A stretch of 37,685 nt of DNA. Origin: Pseudomonadota bacterium (GTDB lineage: Bacteria; Pseudomonadota; Gammaproteobacteria; Pseudomonadales; Moraxellaceae). Below, piece by piece: positions 19,215 to 29,212 of this stretch (within the stretch, counting starts at the first letter, position 1; each line of letters opens with the position of its first letter). Made by a program: the position numbers and the translations under genes. The notes below the pieces were generated by a model. The model made no database searches and was not told the origin of the DNA. It was given only the letters and a program-made list of their open reading frames with translations. The stretch covers positions 1-37,685 of the forward strand of contig CAUJHL010000061.1 in NCBI GenBank assembly GCA_963204705.1, in the 5' to 3' direction.

Positions 19215-20243
19215 ATGATTGACAAGCAATATCATGTCTATATCAGCACGGCGGGTCCCGATACCCAGCCGGAGCGTGCTGTGGTACAGCAAACCCTCGC
19301 CAGTCTTGGTTTTTTTTCATGGGGTCTGGAAGACAGGACACCCCTGACGACGGCGTTTGCCCGTCGCCAGATCGACGAATGCGATTATTTTCTGCTGCTG
19401 CTGGGAAGCAAATACGGTGAGCTATCGGCTTCTGGCGTCAGTTACATGCATCTTGAATACATTTATGCGGTCACCAAGCAAAAGCCGATCATTGTCCTGC
19501 TGCATGAGTCGCCGGACTCACGCCTGACTTCCCTGCAAGAAACCACTCAGGACGCCAAAATCAAATTTCAGGATTTTCGCCGTCAGTTGCAGCGGGAACG
19601 TGAGATGGTCGTTACCTATCGTGAAGCCCGCGATCTGGAACTGGCCCTGCGCCATGCGATGCCACAGTTTGTGACGCGTTATCCCGCCCAGGGCTGGATT
19701 CGACCCATGCAAACCCAGCGCCTGCAGGATGAAATCGACCAGCTCCGCCAAAAAATTGCACAACTGGAGTCACAGCCGCAGGCAGCCGTAGCCGAGCGCG
19801 ATAGTCTGGTACCCGGGCTTGACATTCCCAAGGTCAATGGTGATGAAGAATTTTCCTTTGACTACAAAGTCCATGCGTATCAGGATGGTAATTTCCGCGA
19901 ATTACGCCCCCAGCGCCGTATGAGCTGGAATGACCTGCTGATGGTGATTGGCCCCGGATTTAGCCCGGGTGCGCCAGAAGAAAATTTTGGTCGTGTGATC
20001 AACGATTATCTGAACAGTCATGCGCTGGAAGACGTTCGTGAGGTCATGCCACGGGCCCATGCGGTGGCCCGCAGCCAAATTAATGTACGCGGCTTGCATA
20101 CCATCAAGATGCAGCTCAAGCAAAATGGCTGGATCGTGCCAATTGGCCGTGACAATCGTCATCGCGTTTTGTGGGAGCTGTCTCCGGCAGGTGAGCGTTT
20201 GTTATCGAAAATGTTGGCTAAACAACGATTTAAAAATGCCTAA
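19215..20243 (+). CDS. DUF4062 domain protein with coiled coil and C-terminal domain
   Basis: The start at 19215 is set by AGGAG six bases upstream. Residues about 5-100 form a DUF4062 domain: an initial VYISTA strand, an E-R-x-V helix, [18 protein letters not shown] and a [13 protein letters not shown] strand. DUF4062 is a Rossmann/TIR-like fold, often found at the N-terminus of signalling or conflict proteins and of unknown biochemical role. A short coiled coil (about 170-187) follows, then a C-terminal domain (about 210-342). That domain ends in a possible winged-helix segment (helix, [11 protein letters not shown], then a strand-rich [15 protein letters not shown]). Its stop overlaps hemH by 8 bp, so the two are coupled although no functional link is known. 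Confidence 0.8.
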
Positions 20244-21255
20244 TTCGTCGAAACCTCTGGGCATATTGCTTGTCAATCTGGGTACTCCCGATGCGCCAAC
20301 GCCGGCAGCTGTCCGGCGTTATCTCAAAGAATTTCTCTCTGACACCCGCGTCGTTGAAATACCCCGCCTGATCTGGTGGGCGATCCTGACGCTGTTTGTG
20401 TTACCCCTGCGTTCTCCACGGGTTGCCAAAGCCTACGCCTCCATCTGGGAAACCGATTCACCGATGCGGCGTATTCTCAGTGATCAGGCGATGGCAGTCG
20501 CCTGCGCGCTGGATTCGGACACTTCGCCGGAGCTGGAAAGCCTACAGGCCCAACCGATCTGTGTTTTGCCGGCCATGACCTATGGCAAACCGTCGCTTTC
20601 CAGTCAACTGGATGCCATGATGAAGCAGGGCATTCGTCATATTCTGGTGATGCCGTTATTTCCACAGTACTCCGCCACAACCACCGCCGCCATTTACGAT
20701 GCAGTGCAGCGCTGGACGGCGAAACAGCGCGATTTGCCAGCACTTAATCTGCTGAATGATTACCACGATCATCCGCTGTACATCCAGGCACTGGCAGACA
20801 GTGTGCGCCGCTATCAGGCTGAGCATGGTGTGCCGGAAAAATTATTGCTGTCCTTTCATGGTATTCCCCAGCCCTATGCCGATAAAGGCGACCCGTATCC
20901 CCATCAGTGTCATCACACTGCGCGGTTACTGGCCAGCCTGCTGAATTTGGCTGACGATCAATGGGCGATCAGTTTTCAGTCGCGCTTTGGCAAGCAGGAA
21001 TGGGTTAAGCCCTACACGGATGGGGTGCTGGCGGATTGGGGACAATCTGGAGTGCGCTCAGTACAGGTAATCAGTCCGGCATTTTCAGCGGACTGCCTGG
21101 AAACTCTCGAAGAGCTGGCGGTTGAAAATCGGGAGCATTTTTTGGCTTCCGGCGGTCAGGAGTATGGTTATATTCCGGCGCTCAACACCGATCCGTTGCA
21201 CATTGAATTATTGAAAGACCTGGCCCGCCGGGGAGTTCGGGGCTTGGTAGGCTAA
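20236..21255 (+). CDS. hemH: Ferrochelatase HemH
   Basis: HemH inserts Fe(II) into protoporphyrin IX at the inner face of the cytoplasmic membrane, the last step of haem synthesis. The start at 20236 gives the family opening [14 protein letters not shown]. Metal-site residues are H208 in [15 protein letters not shown] and E289 in [14 protein letters not shown]. The 339-residue length is standard. The start lies inside the last codons of the DUF4062 gene and lacks a clear ribosome-binding site of its own, so translation is probably coupled. Confidence 0.96.
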
Positions 21256-21395: not shown

Positions 21396-22454
21396 ATGCC
21401 TGCTGCAGGACCTCGTGATATTTCCAATCGCCCCATCAGCGCCATCACTCTACACACTATTCAGCCCTATCTGGCACGCGCATTGGTGGACTGGTCACTG
21501 CGACGGGGATATTCCGCCGGCTGGCTGGCAACCCGACTTAATATTCCCACTCTGGATCTGCTGAGTCAGGCCGATTGCCGCCTGTCTGCACTGCAATATG
21601 AAGGGCTGCTGTCAGCACTCTATGACGAGGGCCACGCATCGCTCGGTGTCGACATTGGCCAGCAACTCACCGTCTCCAGCTACGGTGTGCTGGGCCATGC
21701 CATGCAAACGGCAGAAACAGTCGGTGATGCGGTGCAACTAGGGTTGTCCTTTTATCGTTTGACCAGCAATTTCATGACGCTGCAATCCCGCTGGACGCCG
21801 CAGGGCCTGTGTCTGGAGGCATTCATGGACTATGAACTGCCGGCGCTGGGACGGTTTGCACCGGAGGAGCATTTGGCCGGTATTTGCCAGATAGCCCGTC
21901 AATTGATTGGGCAGGCATTTACGCCCTTATCGGTGAGTTTGCCTGCGCAGAATGCCGATGCGTTGTCACAGTTTTTAGGGTGTCCGGTTGCGACCGGATC
22001 GAACAGTACGTGTTTTACCATTGCCCATTCGCTGCTGGAGAGAGGTTTGCCCTATGCGCACGCCCTGACTTCCCAGCAGTTGCGGCGTATCTGTCAACAG
22101 TTGGCAGATGAGGAGGAAGACCAGTCATCACCTGTGGATCTGAGGGGACAAGTGCGACAAATACTGACTCAGACCGATCCGCTATTGTGGCCTGATTTGC
22201 CCGCCCTGGCGCGTTCATTGTCCACGACCGAACGCACCTTACGGCGGCGACTGTCAGAGCAGGGGACAGATTATCGGCGGGAACAGGATCGTGAGCGACA
22301 AAAGCGGGCTGAATGGCTGCTGGAGAATAGCACGCTGTCGGTCGAAGCGATTTCAGCTCAGCTGGGCTATGGGGAAGTGGCCAGTTTTCGGCGGGCCTTT
22401 CATCGCTGGCATGGGCAATCCCCCCGGCAGCGATTTCCGGTGGTGATGTCTTAA
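21396..22454 (+). CDS. sphR: AraC-family regulator with OruR/ArgR-type sensor domain, SphR-like
   Basis: The N-terminal 200 residues match the arabinose-binding-domain type found in OruR-like regulators (YGVLGHAMQTAETVGDAVQLG block). The C-terminal 90 residues form a double helix-turn-helix of the AraC type (ARSLSTTERTLRRRL, then VEAISAQLGYGEVASFRRAF and the closing segment). In Pseudomonas aeruginosa a regulator of this architecture, SphR, senses sphingosine and activates sphBCD and ceramidase. The nearby cytochrome, FAD oxidoreductase, PLP enzyme and ceramidase genes suggest the same role here, so the symbol is by context. The gene is convergent with the acyltransferase, 6 bp apart, and its leader carries the 13-bp repeats. 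Confidence 0.75.
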   Translation: MPAAGPRDISNRPISAITLHTIQPYLARALVDWSLRRGYSAGWLATRLNIPTLDLLSQADCRLSALQYEGLLSALYDEGHASLGVDIGQQLTVSSYGVLGHAMQTAETVGDAVQLGLSFYRLTSNFMTLQSRWTPQGLCLEAFMDYELPALGRFAPEEHLAGICQIARQLIGQAFTPLSVSLPAQNADALSQFLGCPVATGSNSTCFTIAHSLLERGLPYAHALTSQQLRRICQQLADEEEDQSSPVDLRGQVRQILTQTDPLLWPDLPALARSLSTTERTLRRRLSEQGTDYRREQDRERQKRAEWLLENSTLSVEAISAQLGYGEVASFRRAFHRWHGQSPRQRFPVVMS

Positions 22455-22460
22455 CGTGAT

Positions 22461-23444
22461 TCAGGGGACTTCGCTGAAGGAAGCAGCCATTGAAGGACGT
22501 AGTGCAATGCCCGATTGGCCTCCCAGCATCTGATCGAGTCGCTGATCTTTTTCTTCCCAGATCTGGTTCACCCAAGTCTGAAAGCGTTCGCGAAACGCTG
22601 GGTCATGTTCATAATCCCCGCAGTGCAGCTCGGCTGGAATCGGTACTTCACGAATATGCACCTGAATAGCCGGTACCTTGCCGCACATAAACTCCCAGAA
22701 CCCCGGAATGCCATTGGGATAGGCAATCGTAAAATCCAGCAGCGAATGAAACTGGTCACCCAGCACGTTAATGGCCAGGGCGATACCACCAGATTTGGGT
22801 TTCAGCAGATGTCGATAGGGCGACTGCTGCTGTGCGTGTTTTTTCGGCGTAAAACGCGTTCCTTCCAGAAAATTCACTACTGAAGTCGGCGTGCGGGAAA
22901 ATTTCTCGCAGGCCCTGCGGGTGGATTCCTTGTCCTGTCCGCGTTTTTCAGGATGCTTGGCCAGATACTCCTTGCTGTAGCGTTTCATAAAGGGAAAATC
23001 GAGCGCCCACCAGCACAGACCCATGATAGGAACGTAAATAAGCTCATGTTTTAGAAAAAATTTAAGCATGGGCGCGCGCCGGTTAACGATGCGCTGCATG
23101 GCCAGAATGTCCACCCAGGACTGATGATTGGAGGTCACCAGATACCAGCCCTGACGTTGCAAACACGCCATTCCTTCAACTTCCCAGCGGGTCGGCTGGG
23201 TCAGGCGTTGCCAGGCATTGTTGCCTTCTGTCCAGCTTTCCGACACATAAATCAGCCATTGTTCAATAGTGCGCTGCACGGATAAAAATGGCAGTAACAG
23301 TTTGATGATGGTGAGCGGCAACAGCGCACTGAAATGGAGGGCAGTGTTGGCTCCCAACAGCACAGAGGCCAGAATGCCACGGGCTACCGGAGGCAAGCGG
23401 TGGATGAGAGTGGGGGGATTGGGCAGGAGCACGGGGGCGGACAT
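22461..23444 (-). CDS. PlsC-type 1-acylglycerol-3-phosphate acyltransferase family protein (YihG-like)
   Basis: The 327-residue protein has the acyltransferase HxxxxD motif (NHQSWVDIL, H107 and D112) and the FLEGTRFTPKK block that binds the phosphate of the acceptor. Hydrophobic segments in the first 60 residues (about 22-55) indicate anchoring in the inner membrane. Overall it resembles the YihG/LCLAT branch rather than the short PlsC. It probably acylates lysophosphatidic acid or a related lysolipid at the inner membrane. It lies between the AraC gene (convergent) and the cytochrome gene (divergent), so a link to the sphingolipid set is possible but only by position. Confidence 0.85.
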   Translation of the reverse strand: MSAPVLLPNPPTLIHRLPPVARGILASVLLGANTALHFSALLPLTIIKLLLPFLSVQRTIEQWLIYVSESWTEGNNAWQRLTQPTRWEVEGMACLQRQGWYLVTSNHQSWVDILAMQRIVNRRAPMLKFFLKHELIYVPIMGLCWWALDFPFMKRYSKEYLAKHPEKRGQDKESTRRACEKFSRTPTSVVNFLEGTRFTPKKHAQQQSPYRHLLKPKSGGIALAINVLGDQFHSLLDFTIAYPNGIPGFWEFMCGKVPAIQVHIREVPIPAELHCGDYEHDPAFRERFQTWVNQIWEEKDQRLDQMLGGQSGIALRPSMAASFSEVP

Positions 23445-23484
23445 ACAGAATTTCCAGTGAACAATCGTACACTATTTTGGCACA

Positions 23485-23510
23485 GTATTGCAGACAGCTT
23501 GCTGCAGTAC
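23485..23510. promoter_or_regulatory. Inverted repeat upstream of the acyltransferase gene
   Basis: GTATTGCAG at 23485-23493 and CTGCAGTAC at 23502-23510 are complementary at 8 of 9 positions with an 8-bp spacer, 41 bp upstream of the acyltransferase start. The geometry suggests an operator for a dimeric regulator. Confidence 0.4.
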
Positions 23511-23643
23511 AAGTAGGAAATGGCAAGGCCCGAGCGTACTGCTTCCCTGGCATTCAGACAATTGCCGAAAGGAGCAGGGGCTGGGACCAGGGCCGGCTAT
23601 TCCGTCACTGCAGTTGAGTTGACGCTATTAAGTTAGTTCTGTT

Positions 23644-23671
23644 GAGTTGTTGCGGATGAGTTGTTGCGGAT
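23644..23671. repeat. Perfect 14-bp tandem duplication in the acyltransferase/cytochrome spacer
   Basis: GAGTTGTTGCGGAT occurs at 23644-23657 and again at 23658-23671, followed by a third partial GAG. It lies in the 413-bp divergent spacer that otherwise contains no gene. One helical turn plus a few bases separates the copies, so both slippage and paired binding sites remain possible. Confidence 0.7.
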
Positions 23672-23685
23672 GAGGAATGGGTTAT

Positions 23686-23728
23686 TGGCCGGAAATATCC
23701 CCTTAATTGTCCGAAATCGTCCTTGGAA
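23686..23728 (+). promoter_or_regulatory. Candidate AraC-type activator site and -35 of the sph-like operon
   Basis: Two related 15-mers, TGGCCGGAAATATCC at 23686-23700 and TGTCCGAAATCGTCC at 23708-23722, match at 10 of 15 positions. They start 22 bp apart, two helical turns, the usual spacing of AraC-family direct half-sites. The downstream copy abuts TTGGAA at 23723-23728, a plausible -35; the -10 seventeen bases on (23746-23751) is poor, as expected of an activator-dependent promoter. The site is 136 bp upstream of the cytochrome gene start. Confidence 0.5.
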
Positions 23729-23857
23729 CATTGCAGGTGCTTTTTTAAGCTAGATTACCCGCCATTACCCGCGCATGCTGGCTATGCCGTGGAATGCGTT
23801 GCCCTGGTTCACCGTGCCGCACTTTTTTCAGTTTTTGTCAGGACAGGAAGCTCCACG

Positions 23858-24271
23858 ATGCGCAGATCCTTGAAATCCTCTAACGTATTAAAATCACTGA
23901 CATTAAGTTCGGTCATTGGGTGGTGGGCAATTCCCACGCTGATAGTGGCGATTTCGGGTTGTGGTGGGTCTGGCCAATCTGGGCCGGCCGCTTCGGAAGG
24001 TATTGAGGCCCTGCCGGTACTGACGGCGGCCCAGCAACAGTTGTATAACCAGAGCTGTAAAAACTGCCATGAAAATAAGGCAGTGGCTGCTCCACAAAAA
24101 GGCGATCTGGCTGCCTGGCAAGCCCGGGCAGCCCAAGGAATGCCGGTGTTACTTCAACATGCGGTGGCAGGCTTTAATACCATGCCAGCGGGTGGCCTCT
24201 GCACCACCTGCAGTGCAGAGGATTACAGCCAATTGATCCGCTACCTGAACACGGCTGCGGCCAAACCTTAA
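23858..24271 (+). CDS. sphD: Lipoprotein cytochrome c5 family protein (SphD-like)
   Basis: The start at 23858 has AGGAAG seven bases upstream. The 137-residue precursor has a signal segment (about 11-34) ending in lipobox ISGC with C35 as the lipidated residue, so it is probably a membrane-anchored periplasmic protein. One haem site is present: CKNCH at 67-71. The axial Met is M109 in FNTMPAGG, and the following CTTC pair (C115, C118) is the disulfide typical of cytochrome c5. It should accept electrons from a periplasmic dehydrogenase; the next gene encodes one. The name is by analogy with the sphBCD cluster. Confidence 0.85.
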   Translation: MRRSLKSSNVLKSLTLSSVIGWWAIPTLIVAISGCGGSGQSGPAASEGIEALPVLTAAQQQLYNQSCKNCHENKAVAAPQKGDLAAWQARAAQGMPVLLQHAVAGFNTMPAGGLCTTCSAEDYSQLIRYLNTAAAKP

Positions 24272-24322
24272 TGGAATCCGGCATGGAGGTGTGTACTCCG
24301 GCCTTGTGGAATTGAGTCTGTC

Positions 24323-25843
24323 ATGTCCAAACCTGATCTATCGTCGTCATCCTCTGAACCAGTTCTGTCAATGGCAGTCACTGCTGAACCCGCCACGGCT
24401 GTAACCAGACGACCTGCATATCGTCGTCGTGACGTGTTAGGCCGGATTGCGGCGCTGTCGGCATTGCCCGTGGTGGCAGGATCGGCCACGGTCGCAGGTG
24501 GACTGACAGGGTGTCAGCGCCAGTCTGCAGCCTCTGCAGCAAGTTTACCGATTGCAGATGCCAAGGGTCATCTCCTGTGGCAAAACTGGTCTGGCCTGAA
24601 TCATGGCTACCCGGCACAACGTATCGCTGCGGACAGTCCGCAGGCACTGGCGGCACGGCTTGCCAGCGCCCCTGTGCCGATTCGGGTACTCGGTGCGAGT
24701 CACAGTTTTAATGCGCAATGTGTGACCGAAGGAACGGCGCTGTCGATTGACGGCTGGAGCGGTATTCGTGCTGTGGATACGACTGCCCTGACCGCAACCG
24801 TCAAAGCGGGTACCCGTCTGATGCAGCTGGGCGAGGAGCTGGCCAGGGCCGGTCAGGAAATGTGGAGCCTGCCAGACATCAATAAGCAGACCCTGGCCGG
24901 GGCGATATCCACCGGAACGCATGGCGCCGGTTTGCACATTCCGGCGATGCACGGGCGCGTACACTCTTTCGAGCTGGTAACGCCAACGGGGCAGGTATTG
25001 AACTGTAGTCCTGAGACGAATGCTGAACTGTTTCACTCGGCGCTGGTGGGGCTGGGCAGTTTTGGCATCGTGACCGAATACACCCTGCTCAACTGGCCGT
25101 TGGCGCGTACCCGTCGGGAAACACAGGTGGTTCCACTGAAACAGATGCTGGGGGAATGGGAAAACCTCCGGCAACAGCATCGCAACGCTGAATTTTATTA
25201 TTTGCCCTTTACCGATCTGGCCGTGCGCATACTGCACGATACGACGACCGATGCACCGATTCCACGCCCTGCTGATCAGGACATGGATGGCCTGATGGAT
25301 CTGAAAAAACTGCGCGACTGGGCCAGCTGGTCAACCCCATTGCGCAAACGGATCGCGCAGGCATTGGGCAACAAACACAGTCCGGAAGTGGCAGTGGACG
25401 AAGCATGGAAACTGTTGTCCTCTGAGCGGACGATTCGCTTTAACGAAATGGAATATCACTTGCCGCTGGAGCATCAGTTGCCCGCGTTAGAGGAAATCAT
25501 TCATTTGATTGAGACACAGTTTCCCGAGGTATTTTTCCCCGTGGAATGCCGTGTGGTGGCAGCGGACGAGCAGGCCTGGCTATCACCGTTTTATCAGCGG
25601 GCGACGGGTTCTATTGCAGTGCACAGTTATTATCGTGAAGATCACACCGCAGTGTTTGGCGCGATAGAAAAAATCTTTCGCCGTTACGGCGGTAGGCCGC
25701 ACTGGGGCAAATTGCATAGCCTCAAGGCGGCTGAGCTGAAAGAACTGTACCCACGCTGGCAGCAGGTAGCCGCAGTGCGCCAGCAAGTGGATCCGCAAAA
25801 CCGCATGCTGAATGCCTATCTGCGTGCATTGTGGGGAGCCTGA
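24323..25843 (+). CDS. sphC: Tat-exported FAD-dependent oxidoreductase, sugar-1,4-lactone oxidase family (SphC-like)
   Basis: The N-terminus has a twin-arginine signal (YRRRDVLGRIAALSAL, residues 33-48) ending in lipobox LTGC with C64, so it is likely folded with FAD in the cytoplasm, exported by Tat and lipidated. The FAD-binding domain shows GASHSFN at 124-130 and the flavin-contact STGTHGAG at 196-203. The C-terminal half has the fold of D-arabinono-1,4-lactone oxidase and alditol oxidase, which oxidise primary alcohols or lactone carbons. The sole neighbouring electron carrier is the cytochrome c5 gene 51 bp upstream, which suggests dehydrogenase rather than oxidase activity. A sphingoid base is a candidate substrate by gene context, not by active-site reading. 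Confidence 0.85.
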   Translation: MSKPDLSSSSSEPVLSMAVTAEPATAVTRRPAYRRRDVLGRIAALSALPVVAGSATVAGGLTGCQRQSAASAASLPIADAKGHLLWQNWSGLNHGYPAQRIAADSPQALAARLASAPVPIRVLGASHSFNAQCVTEGTALSIDGWSGIRAVDTTALTATVKAGTRLMQLGEELARAGQEMWSLPDINKQTLAGAISTGTHGAGLHIPAMHGRVHSFELVTPTGQVLNCSPETNAELFHSALVGLGSFGIVTEYTLLNWPLARTRRETQVVPLKQMLGEWENLRQQHRNAEFYYLPFTDLAVRILHDTTTDAPIPRPADQDMDGLMDLKKLRDWASWSTPLRKRIAQALGNKHSPEVAVDEAWKLLSSERTIRFNEMEYHLPLEHQLPALEEIIHLIETQFPEVFFPVECRVVAADEQAWLSPFYQRATGSIAVHSYYREDHTAVFGAIEKIFRRYGGRPHWGKLHSLKAAELKELYPRWQQVAAVRQQVDPQNRMLNAYLRALWGA

Positions 25844-25845
25844 CC

Positions 25846-27159
25846 GTGGCAGAGCAGGGAGGCAGACGCCTGACCGGACACTTGGCCCAACAGGGTTTGA
25901 CTCGTCGCCAGTGGTTGTTAGGAAGTATGGCGGTGGCAGCGGCGGGCGGGTTTGCGGCGCGGCCAGCCCTTCGAGGGGCTCCACCTGGCCTTTATTTTAA
26001 ACGCTTGCAGCTGGCACTGGAGCAGGCAGACATCTGGGCACCGACGCTGGTCATCGATCAGCTAGCCCTGAAGGCCAATACTCAGACCGTCAAACAGTGG
26101 CTGGCGGTACATCAACTGCCCTGTCGGCTGGTGGTCAAGTCCTTACCCTGTTTAGCCCTTTTGCAGCAGCTGAGTGCTGAATTGCAGACCCAGCGCTTTA
26201 TGGTGTTTAACCTGCCGATGCTGGACAGTGTACTCACGGCGTTTCCAGAGGCCGATGTGCTGTTTGGCAAGCCAATGCCAGCGCCAGAAGTCGCCCACTG
26301 GGTAAAGACCTCGCCACACACCGAGCGTCTGGCGTCGATACAGTGGCTGGTGGACAGCGCAGCCCGAGTGCAGGAATACGCCGCTTTGGCTACCACTCAA
26401 CCCTTGCGTATCAATCTGGAACTGGATGTAGGCCTGCATCGGGGGGGATTTCCCGATTCCAAAGCGTTGGGTGCAGTACTTCAGCAACTGTCTACGCTAA
26501 AGAATCGTCTGACTCTGGCCGGTATCATGGCCTATGACGCCCATGTAGCCAAATTGCCCAGCCTGTTCGGCTTGCAGGCGGATGCCTGGCAGACGGTTCA
26601 GAGTCGCCTCGCGGATGCCCGCACGCAGTTAACAGCAGCCGGTTATGTGCCTGACCAGCTCACCCTGAACGCAGGCGGCAGCCCGACCTATCAGCGGCAC
26701 GCGGCAGGAACACGGGCGAATGAGGTGGCGATTGGCAGTGCCTTTGTCCAGCCTTCGCATTTTGATGACACGGTATCGGGCCATGTTCCGGCCTGTTTTA
26801 TCGCAACGCCCGTGCTGAAAGTGGTCGAGCCAGTGCAGATTCCGGGCATTGAATGGCTGAGTGCTGTGAGCCGACAGTGGGATCGCAATGCCGAACGTGG
26901 TTATTTTATCCATGGTGGGCAGTGGCTGGCCGATCCGGTGTCGCCTGCCGGACTGGAGCGGAGTAGCCTGTATGGCGTTTCCTCTAATCAGGAACTGTGG
27001 ATGGGCTCGAAGGCTACGGGGTTAACGGTCAATGATCGGGTGTTTTTTCGCCCGACCCAGAGTGAAGCTGTCCTATTGCAATTCGGCGATGTGCAGCTGT
27101 ATGACAGTCAGCGCAGCCACATTGAAGCGGCATGGCCGGTGTTTCCAGTATCGGCCTGA
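25846..27159 (+). CDS. sphB: Tat-exported fold-III PLP enzyme, D-threonine aldolase/D-serine dehydratase-like (SphB-like)
   Basis: I chose GTG at 25846, which has GGGGAG eight bases upstream, overlapping no other gene; GTG at 25831 is an alternative. A Tat signal is visible (LTRRQWLLGSMAVAAAGGFAA, arginines 20-21). The alanine-racemase-like barrel starts near residue 65, with the PLP lysine probably K98 in RLVVKSLPC. Family members cleave D-beta-hydroxy-alpha-amino acids or deaminate D-serine. The C-terminal metal segment, usually PNHxC in this family, reads PTQSE here, so the usual His and Cys ligands seem to be missing. It follows the FAD gene by 2 bp and is certainly co-transcribed with it. 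Confidence 0.8.
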   Translation: MAEQGGRRLTGHLAQQGLTRRQWLLGSMAVAAAGGFAARPALRGAPPGLYFKRLQLALEQADIWAPTLVIDQLALKANTQTVKQWLAVHQLPCRLVVKSLPCLALLQQLSAELQTQRFMVFNLPMLDSVLTAFPEADVLFGKPMPAPEVAHWVKTSPHTERLASIQWLVDSAARVQEYAALATTQPLRINLELDVGLHRGGFPDSKALGAVLQQLSTLKNRLTLAGIMAYDAHVAKLPSLFGLQADAWQTVQSRLADARTQLTAAGYVPDQLTLNAGGSPTYQRHAAGTRANEVAIGSAFVQPSHFDDTVSGHVPACFIATPVLKVVEPVQIPGIEWLSAVSRQWDRNAERGYFIHGGQWLADPVSPAGLERSSLYGVSSNQELWMGSKATGLTVNDRVFFRPTQSEAVLLQFGDVQLYDSQRSHIEAAWPVFPVSA

Positions 27160-27223
27160 ATTGGGCTGAGTATTCCAAATACATTACAGGACAGTCCCTA
27201 ATCCACTGACACGGGGGGAGAAA

Positions 27224-29212
27224 ATGCGGCAGCTCTATGATTTCAGTACTATTCCTGTTGGGAAAACACCGCAGTCTGGCCAGAGCATGGCGGGACATGC
27301 CCAGCGTGATATTACGCCGCCGCCGCATATGCCCAAGGCGGGTTATTCTGCCAATGCCAAATGCGGCAAGGGATTTCGTACCCGATTAAAAGCACGGGCA
27401 TTTTATCTGCGTGCAGAGGACGGATTGTCCTTTGCGCTGGTGCAGCTGGATTTGCTGGGCGGTTCGCTGATCGTCCGTCAGCGGGTACTGGAAATCGTTA
27501 GTCCGGTCACCGATATTGGCCCTGGACAATTGATGTTGGGTGCCACCCACACGCATTCCGGGCCGGGGAATTTTTGCGCGTCCGAATTTTACAATCGCTA
27601 TGCCTCCAATAAATCCGGCTTTGATCCGGTGTATTTTGAATTTTTGAGCCAGCAAATCGCCGAGGCAGTGATCGAGGCTTATCAGTCGGCCCGACCTGCC
27701 AGGGTTGCCAGCGGACAGGTAGCCGTCTGGGGTCTGACGCGCAACCGATCCCTGATTCCGCATTTTGAAAATATCCAGCGTCTGGTCACTGCGATCGATA
27801 GCCATACGGTGTTTTATGCGATTGATCCCCGGCTGAATCTGCTGCGTATTGACGCCTTGCATGATGATGGGAAGTATTATCCGCTGGGAGCCATTTCGAC
27901 TTTTTCCATCCATGCGACGGGGGTTCCCCAGCAGATTGATGAATACACGGCGGATTTATGGGCCCATGTCGAACGTGATCTGGCCAATCAGGTCGCGGCT
28001 GATTTTCATACTCCCTGGCCTGTTTTACATGCTGCTATTGAGGGTAATCATGGCGACATGACACCCGCCATCCATGTCGGTGCTGCCGGTTATATGGAAT
28101 CACGGCGGATTGGGGAAGCCATTGCGCAGGCGGCGCTTCGCCTGTTTGGCCAATTGGAACCGAGCCTGACCGAGCTGAACGAGTTACAACTGGCCTTTGA
28201 AATCCGGGATCTGCATCCCACGGCGGGTCACAAGGAATGGCAAGGTTTGCCAGAACCGATGATTGGTGCGGCAACCGCAGCCGGTGCCCGGGAAAATACC
28301 ACGCCTTTTTTGGAGCATTTGCCACCGTTTAAGGCAGGCTGGCGCAAGCCGGTTCCGCATCGTGCCGGAGGGCCAGCGCATGGCGCCAAAGTACCGATGA
28401 TCCCAGCCGTGTTGCGCAAGATTATTTTGCCAGCAGCGAATTATCCGCATTATTTACCCTTACAGCTGGTCAAAATCGGTGATTGGCTGCTGGCGGGGTT
28501 GCCGTTTGAAATCACGGTAGGCGCGGGGCAGCGCATCGAATCCGCACTCAGAACGCATCCTGCCCTGACGAACTGCCGCATCAGCCTGAGCAGTGTGTGT
28601 AACGATTACTGGGGCTATTGCACCACCGAGCAGGAATATGCCTGTCAGTTTTACGAAGGTGGCCACACACTGTACGGGCCGCACAGTAATGCCATTATGG
28701 CGGACTGGATGCAGCAATTGGCCGGTCGGCTGCTTCCGGCACAGTCGATCGTGGATCAGCCGGAGCGACTGGATTTTCGCCTCAGTCTGCACCGCTATAT
28801 GCCCGAATCGGCACTGGCTCTGGATGCTGCACGCTGGCTGACAGAGCCGGTGTATCGGCTGCCGATACGCTGGGAAGAAGGCTTCTGGTCGGCAGAATGG
28901 CTGGACGTCAATCCCTCGCAGATCGATTGGCACCGTCCGCTGGCGCATGTTGAAGCCAGTGATGACCATGGACAGCACTGGTGGGTGTTGACCGACGATG
29001 AAGGCGTGGATATGTCAGTGCGCTGGATCAAGGATACTGTGCGCGGCATGTCCCATTACACCGTTAACTGGTTTAACCCAGAGTTTGCTGGTGCGCGTCA
29101 GTATCGGTTGGTGGTACAGTCACGGGCATCGGGAGCCCTGATCAGTCCGGTATTTGGTGGAAACTGTCTGACGGAGAAGGCAGTGACGCTGATGGATCGG
29201 CTTACGCATTAA
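27224..29212 (+). CDS. Neutral/alkaline non-lysosomal ceramidase family protein (CerN-like)
   Basis: The 662-residue protein has the neutral-ceramidase zinc motif GATHTHSGPG (H109, H111), a second zinc-ligand block FSIHATGV (H230), and a C-terminal beta-sandwich domain (about 530-650). These enzymes split ceramide into sphingoid base and fatty acid. In the family the nucleophile lies in a GD/N-x-S-P motif; here it reads GDMTPA, with Thr (T280) in place of Ser. No signal peptide is visible and no better upstream start exists (GGGGAG precedes the ATG closely). Bacterial neutral ceramidases are normally secreted, so location and activity are open questions. It ends the four-gene set 64 bp after the PLP gene. 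Confidence 0.85.
   Translation: MRQLYDFSTIPVGKTPQSGQSMAGHAQRDITPPPHMPKAGYSANAKCGKGFRTRLKARAFYLRAEDGLSFALVQLDLLGGSLIVRQRVLEIVSPVTDIGPGQLMLGATHTHSGPGNFCASEFYNRYASNKSGFDPVYFEFLSQQIAEAVIEAYQSARPARVASGQVAVWGLTRNRSLIPHFENIQRLVTAIDSHTVFYAIDPRLNLLRIDALHDDGKYYPLGAISTFSIHATGVPQQIDEYTADLWAHVERDLANQVAADFHTPWPVLHAAIEGNHGDMTPAIHVGAAGYMESRRIGEAIAQAALRLFGQLEPSLTELNELQLAFEIRDLHPTAGHKEWQGLPEPMIGAATAAGARENTTPFLEHLPPFKAGWRKPVPHRAGGPAHGAKVPMIPAVLRKIILPAANYPHYLPLQLVKIGDWLLAGLPFEITVGAGQRIESALRTHPALTNCRISLSSVCNDYWGYCTTEQEYACQFYEGGHTLYGPHSNAIMADWMQQLAGRLLPAQSIVDQPERLDFRLSLHRYMPESALALDAARWLTEPVYRLPIRWEEGFWSAEWLDVNPSQIDWHRPLAHVEASDDHGQHWWVLTDDEGVDMSVRWIKDTVRGMSHYTVNWFNPEFAGARQYRLVVQSRASGALISPVFGGNCLTEKAVTLMDRLTH

Follow-up and report, generated by a model that had tools for sequence, protein, structure and literature searches.

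How Pseudomonas aeruginosa and other bacteria degrade sphingosine, which acts as an antimicrobial lipid in skin and lung, has been described as an unsolved problem (PMC11893366). The locus described here raises the question of whether a Moraxellaceae genome carries a system of the kind defined by P. aeruginosa sphBCD, and which reactions its products would catalyse. A two-step route was proposed by LaBauve and Wargo (2014), in which SphC oxidises C1 and SphD cleaves the product to glycine and a long-chain aldehyde. In P. aeruginosa, the removal of sphingosine depends on sphB and sphC (DiGianivittorio et al., 2025, PMC11893366). The same work, whose genetics covered three sphingoid bases, found that P. 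aeruginosa does not need sphD to grow on sphingosine and that P. fluorescens WCS365 lacks this gene; sphBC of C. crescentus gave no significant rescue of a P. aeruginosa mutant. The pathway set out in a first-pass annotation of the locus is this published route, which is plausible but unproven.

The locus and its regulation

The window, the whole 37,685-nucleotide stretch that was analysed, comes from a 2.4 Mb Moraxellaceae genome that is 99.5% complete. ORF and domain checks found the gene set named by the first-pass annotation, all of it on the plus strand. An AraC/XylS regulator of 352 aa (21396-22454; PF12625 and PF12833) lies upstream of sphB (23858-24271), sphC (24323-25843) and sphD (25831-27159), which follow one another in that order, with the sphD start overlapping the sphC end by 13 bp. 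A PF04734 ceramidase-family gene (27224-29212) begins 64 bp downstream of sphD on the same strand. The gene families, their order and the nearby AraC regulator are shared with the P. aeruginosa sphBCD/SphR/cerN system (PMC3900636, PMC5150637, PMC11893366). Each system has an SphR-type operator preceding sphB, and each genome encodes a PF04734 protein. Together, families, order and operator support membership in the sphBCD kind.

The locus had been described as compact, but a minus-strand YihG-family 1-acylglycerol-3-phosphate acyltransferase (22461-23444; NF058536, 425.6 bits against a cut-off of 260) had been overlooked. It cuts the regulator off from its likely target operon and is missing from this position in the four closest relatives. 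Both this interruption and the placement of the AraC gene, upstream on the operon's own strand, differ from P. aeruginosa. It is regarded as unrelated and is not considered part of the system. No sphA porin was recognised adjoining the operon, unlike in P. aeruginosa, and an Rfam search of the window gave no match. Further upstream, a DUF4062 protein (PF13271; 19143-20243, plus strand) overlaps the start of a long ferrochelatase ORF (20020-21255), which places the real start of ferrochelatase downstream of 20020.

The published SphR half-site is TGNCCSNNRNNSNCC, present in two copies 6-8 bp apart (PMC3900636), and the full site has been described as two 15-bp repeats with a 7-bp spacer (PMC5150637). 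In the window, the plus-strand stretch 23686-23722 reads TGGCCGGAAATATCC-CCTTAAT-TGTCCGAAATCGTCC, with a 7-bp spacer, and ends 135 bp before the likely sphB start. It has one mismatch in total to the SphR consensus and is alone in the window in coming within one; first-order Markov simulation gives a chance expectation of 0.03 such pairs per window. AraC homologues with 41-45% identity adjoin sphBCD in four Moraxellaceae genomes of the same clade, where they lie upstream of sphB without the acyltransferase insertion. In all four a TGGCCGnnAnTATCC ... TGTCC element precedes sphB with 2-3 mismatches each; in G011, one of the four, a pair that overlaps the shared element has a marginally higher score. 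Loci lacking a linked AraC gene mostly show 4-6 mismatches to the consensus, which is background. No operator was found before sphB in P. alcaligenes, before the unlinked PF04734 genes of relatives, or before the PF04734 gene of the window itself.

SphR-type control, as proposed by the first-pass annotation, is thus supported by a predicted operator before sphB that is conserved in relatives. In P. alcaligenes the AraC gene next to sphBCD was not its reciprocal best match, so assignment of SphR orthology by this test failed. The linked regulator is a possible SphR counterpart, not a demonstrated orthologue.

Of 96 loci examined, 91 have SphC and SphD as same-strand neighbours, and the B-C-D order is found in 55; as 80 of the 96 were gathered by searching with SphD, loci with SphC but no SphD are under-represented. 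Such an arrangement lies well outside what chance would produce. One locus (L026, in genome G012) has SphC without a neighbouring SphD, like P. fluorescens WCS365, in a genome that also has a PF04734 gene. Among 274 sampled Gammaproteobacteria, SphD occurs in eight genomes, PF04734 in ten and both in seven, so that PF04734 is found in 7/8 SphD genomes against 3/266 others (Fisher p 4e-11, the genomes not being independent). A Moraxellaceae sample comprises 16 genomes with both SphC and PF04734, two with SphC only, four with PF04734 only and 15 with neither. Across 398 Proteobacteria, PF04734 occurs in 3/23 SphD genomes (p 0.0016). A strong ceramidase link throughout the Proteobacteria was therefore rejected; the link is distinct among genomes close to the window and loose among more distant ones. 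PF04734 is absent from 6/12 sampled SphBCD genomes.

The SphC of the window is only ~37% identical to a Pseudomonas SphC. In the SphC tree it falls, with its clade, within a largely alphaproteobacterial group (15 rows, 100/98), whereas the SphC proteins of other Moraxellaceae group with those of Pseudomonas (14 rows, 98/94). This placement suggests that the version in the window was gained horizontally.

SphB and SphC as a probable redox pair

SphB is a cytochrome c5-type lipoprotein (PF13442). Its ORF opens at 23723; from a reading of the sequence, the likely start is the ATG at 23858. In the numbering of the 182-aa ORF, it has a lipobox cysteine (Cys80), a CXXCH haem motif (112-116), Met154 and a c5-type CXXC (160-163). 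The cytochrome c5 features C112/C115/H116, M154 and C160/C163 are present in 60/60 aligned rows.

SphC (506 aa) is an FAD oxidoreductase of the alditol/aldonolactone oxidase family, with PF01565 and PF04030 domains and a TIGR01679 score of 505 bits (cut-off 292). It carries a Tat-type signal and a possible lipobox. In the signal region (24323-24520) the twin-arginine stretch is followed by a terminal LTGC, which raises the possibility that SphC is a lipoprotein exported by Tat and tethered in the same way as SphB. The FAD and ALO domains are shared with alditol oxidase (2VFR, 8OT8; PMC10771423) and with galactonolactone dehydrogenase, whose electrons go to a cytochrome c (PMC11099136). Also retained is the alditol oxidase site, consisting of the flavinylated His127 (covalent FAD) and the catalytic set Glu408, Arg410, His434 and Lys463. 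The pairing of SphB and SphC proposed by the first-pass annotation is supported.

SphC differs from these enzymes in its predicted Tat export and in two acidic positions. Relative to AldO-Ab, whose active-site residues are named in PMC10771423, Ser103 is replaced by Asp185 in 89/89 SphC sequences and Gln295 by Glu375 in 88/89; the serine of AldO-Ab hydrogen-bonds the flavin N5. Placed close to the flavin, two acidic residues would be well matched to an amino-alcohol substrate, whose ammonium group adjoins the alcohol that reacts; on the basis of the alignment, Asp185 and Glu375 are candidate substrate-recognition residues.

A third position corresponds to the flavin gatekeeper, Ala113 of galactonolactone dehydrogenase (PMC11099136). 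Among 89 SphC sequences it is Pro in 74, Ala in seven and Gly in eight, and the window has Pro184. Proline at this position is said to have been seen in oxidases as well, in work by Leferink from 2009. The residue was rejected as a marker of cytochrome use for the window, as Pro184 co-occurs with SphB and Pro is also reported from oxidases. Only glycine is informative, because all eight Gly-gatekeeper proteins (L027, L029, L032, L034, L035, L036, L038 and L125) lack a Tat signal and a neighbouring SphB, and their adjacent SphD also lacks a Tat signal. From this we infer a second, cytoplasmic SphC-SphD form that possibly uses oxygen; the window holds the exported form.

SphD and the ceramidase-family protein

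SphD (442 aa; PF01168) is a fold-III PLP protein with a Tat signal, which had been annotated as of D-threonine-aldolase type. Its AlphaFold model (pLDDT 90) matches the D-threonine aldolase of Alcaligenes xylosoxidans (4V15, PMC4401734) with a Z of 34.5 over 344 residues, at ~17% sequence identity. The closest folds are aldolases and beta-hydroxy-amino-acid dehydratases, and fold III racemases and dehydratases also match the model. The PLP lysine Lys103 is invariant in 95/95 SphD sequences, as are Arg204, which aligns with the carboxylate-binding Arg157, and Tyr235; the stacking tyrosine is likewise common to SphD and the aldolase.

The fold and the PLP lysine therefore stand from the original assignment, but the features that define the aldolase do not. 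Its metal ligands are His347 and Asp349 and its base is His193 (PMC4401734). In a profile alignment that ran through a homologue carrying the His-x-Asp motif, the ligands correspond to Gln410 (92/95) and Glu412 (95/95) of SphD. The base aligns with Lys241 in the window, a position that is Lys in 60/95 and His in 6/95. SphD aligned with one D-serine-dehydratase-like protein (L141) and not with another (L140). The metal site of the nearest known relatives is lost. Because both metal ligands and base are replaced, the case for SphD as a D-threonine aldolase is weakened, and by these residues it would at best be D-threonine-aldolase-like, minus the metal chemistry.

The stereochemical argument of the first-pass annotation is upheld. 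Oxidation of a (2S,3R) base at C1 turns the C2 label from S to R while C3 stays R, and the outcome computed for both sphinganine and sphingosine is the D-allo configuration, like that of D-allo-threonine.

The 662-aa PF04734 protein keeps all four zinc ligands (His97/His204/Glu411/Tyr448), as in P. aeruginosa neutral ceramidase CerN (2ZWS). It is otherwise divergent, and unlike its P. aeruginosa counterpart its gene is linked to sphBCD. The neutral-ceramidase equivalog NF041649 was not reached (127 bits against a cut-off of 1200), and the position of Ser274 is Thr, with Ala or Asn in the two nearest relatives. This Thr was rejected as a sign of a dead ceramidase, since the same residue is found in Pseudomonas and Massilia members that score highly. 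Close relatives are few (39% identity in G505 and 30% in G338; also G265), and SphD is present in 3/4 genomes that carry this PF04734 subtype. No signal peptide and no hydrophobic N-terminal stretch were seen in the window protein; the maximum mean hydropathy of its N-terminus is 0.2, compared with 1.8-3.2 in 6/8 relatives outside the Moraxellaceae. A signal peptide is likewise missing from nearly all of the shorter PF04734 proteins in other Moraxellaceae, and most relatives elsewhere have one.

The PF04734 protein may thus not share a compartment with the exported SphB, SphC and SphD. If it is intracellular, it would not feed an exported SphC directly. This makes the ceramidase step the least secure part of the scheme in the first-pass annotation: the genomic link to PF04734 genes stood, and a shared place in an exported pathway is called into question by the lack of a signal peptide.

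Alternative readings and what the locus may mean

Three other readings bear on different parts of the system. It may be that the PF04734 protein is an intracellular amidase rather than a ceramidase and merely neighbours the operon, which is a serious if doubtful prospect. The missing signal peptide, the low equivalog score, the variable Ser274 position and the lack of an operator of its own are consistent with such a role, yet the complete set of zinc ligands, the occurrence of the same Thr in high-scoring members and the presence of SphD in most genomes with this subtype argue for a ceramidase connected with the pathway. It is less probable again, and on the whole unlikely, that SphB and SphC detoxify alone while SphD converts the 2-amino-3-hydroxy acid in some non-aldol way, for example by epimerising, dehydrating or decarboxylating it. 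The replaced metal ligands and base would fit this, as would the match to racemases and dehydratases, the dispensability of sphD in P. aeruginosa and its absence from P. fluorescens WCS365 (PMC11893366), and the unaccompanied SphC of G012. On the other side, no gene accompanies SphC more consistently than SphD (a result partly ascertained by the SphD search), and the nearest folds of SphD include aldolases as well as beta-hydroxy-amino-acid dehydratases. Furthermore, the reported conversion of an alanine racemase to an aldolase that uses a histidine base and no metal (PMC4401734) indicates that such chemistry can do without the metal.

The remaining reading changes the substrate: what the operon oxidises would be a different long-chain amino alcohol or a hydroxylated lipid, such as a lipid of bacterial origin or one of its breakdown products, with sphingoid bases incidental. 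The alphaproteobacterial affinity of SphC, the half of sampled SphBCD genomes without PF04734 and the membership of SphC in a large family of polyol and lactone oxidases all leave room for this. However, the SphR-type operator, the PF04734 co-occurrence and the genetic results for three sphingoid bases in P. aeruginosa (PMC11893366) count against it, and it is improbable.

The explanation preferred here, that the locus is the Moraxellaceae version of the sphBCD sphingoid-base system, is judged fairly likely as a whole together with the following mechanism. The AraC/SphR-type regulator probably switches on sphB-sphC-sphD from the double operator before sphB, and the downstream ceramidase-family gene is perhaps expressed by read-through. 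SphC, with FAD probably covalently bound, would be exported by the Tat pathway and oxidise the C1 alcohol of free sphingoid bases, and its electrons would exit via the lipoprotein cytochrome c5 SphB. SphD would act on the oxidised 2-amino-3-hydroxy product, most likely by metal-independent, PLP-dependent retro-aldol cleavage. Cleavage would yield a C16 aldehyde together with glycine, or with aminoacetaldehyde should SphC oxidise no further than the aldehyde. Against this stand the alphaproteobacterial-type SphC alongside the failed C. crescentus rescue, the loose phylum-wide PF04734 link, a ceramidase-like protein without an export signal, the dispensable sphD of P. aeruginosa, an SphD without a metal site and a regulator whose SphR orthology is not demonstrated.

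The locus is a real conserved operon of a known kind, for which the published pathway hypothesis is plausible, though unproven. Added here are the operator, the co-occurrence test, the candidate substrate-recognition residues and an SphD without the metal site of known aldolases of the same fold. The comparison narrows the question to testable points, namely the double operator, the acidic SphC residues Asp185 and Glu375, the absence of a metal site from SphD, and the exported and cytoplasmic arrangements. Taken jointly, and only tentatively, SphD may represent an uncharacterised, metal-site-less branch of the D-threonine-aldolase/D-serine-dehydratase fold that is spread across the Proteobacteria and cleaves long-chain (2R,3R)-2-amino-3-hydroxy acids. 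With SphB, and with an SphC whose two acidic residues read the amine, it would constitute an exported substitute for sphingosine-1-phosphate lyase that involves no phosphate, alongside a second, cytoplasmic form that lacks SphB and whose SphC has an oxygen-permitting Gly gatekeeper.
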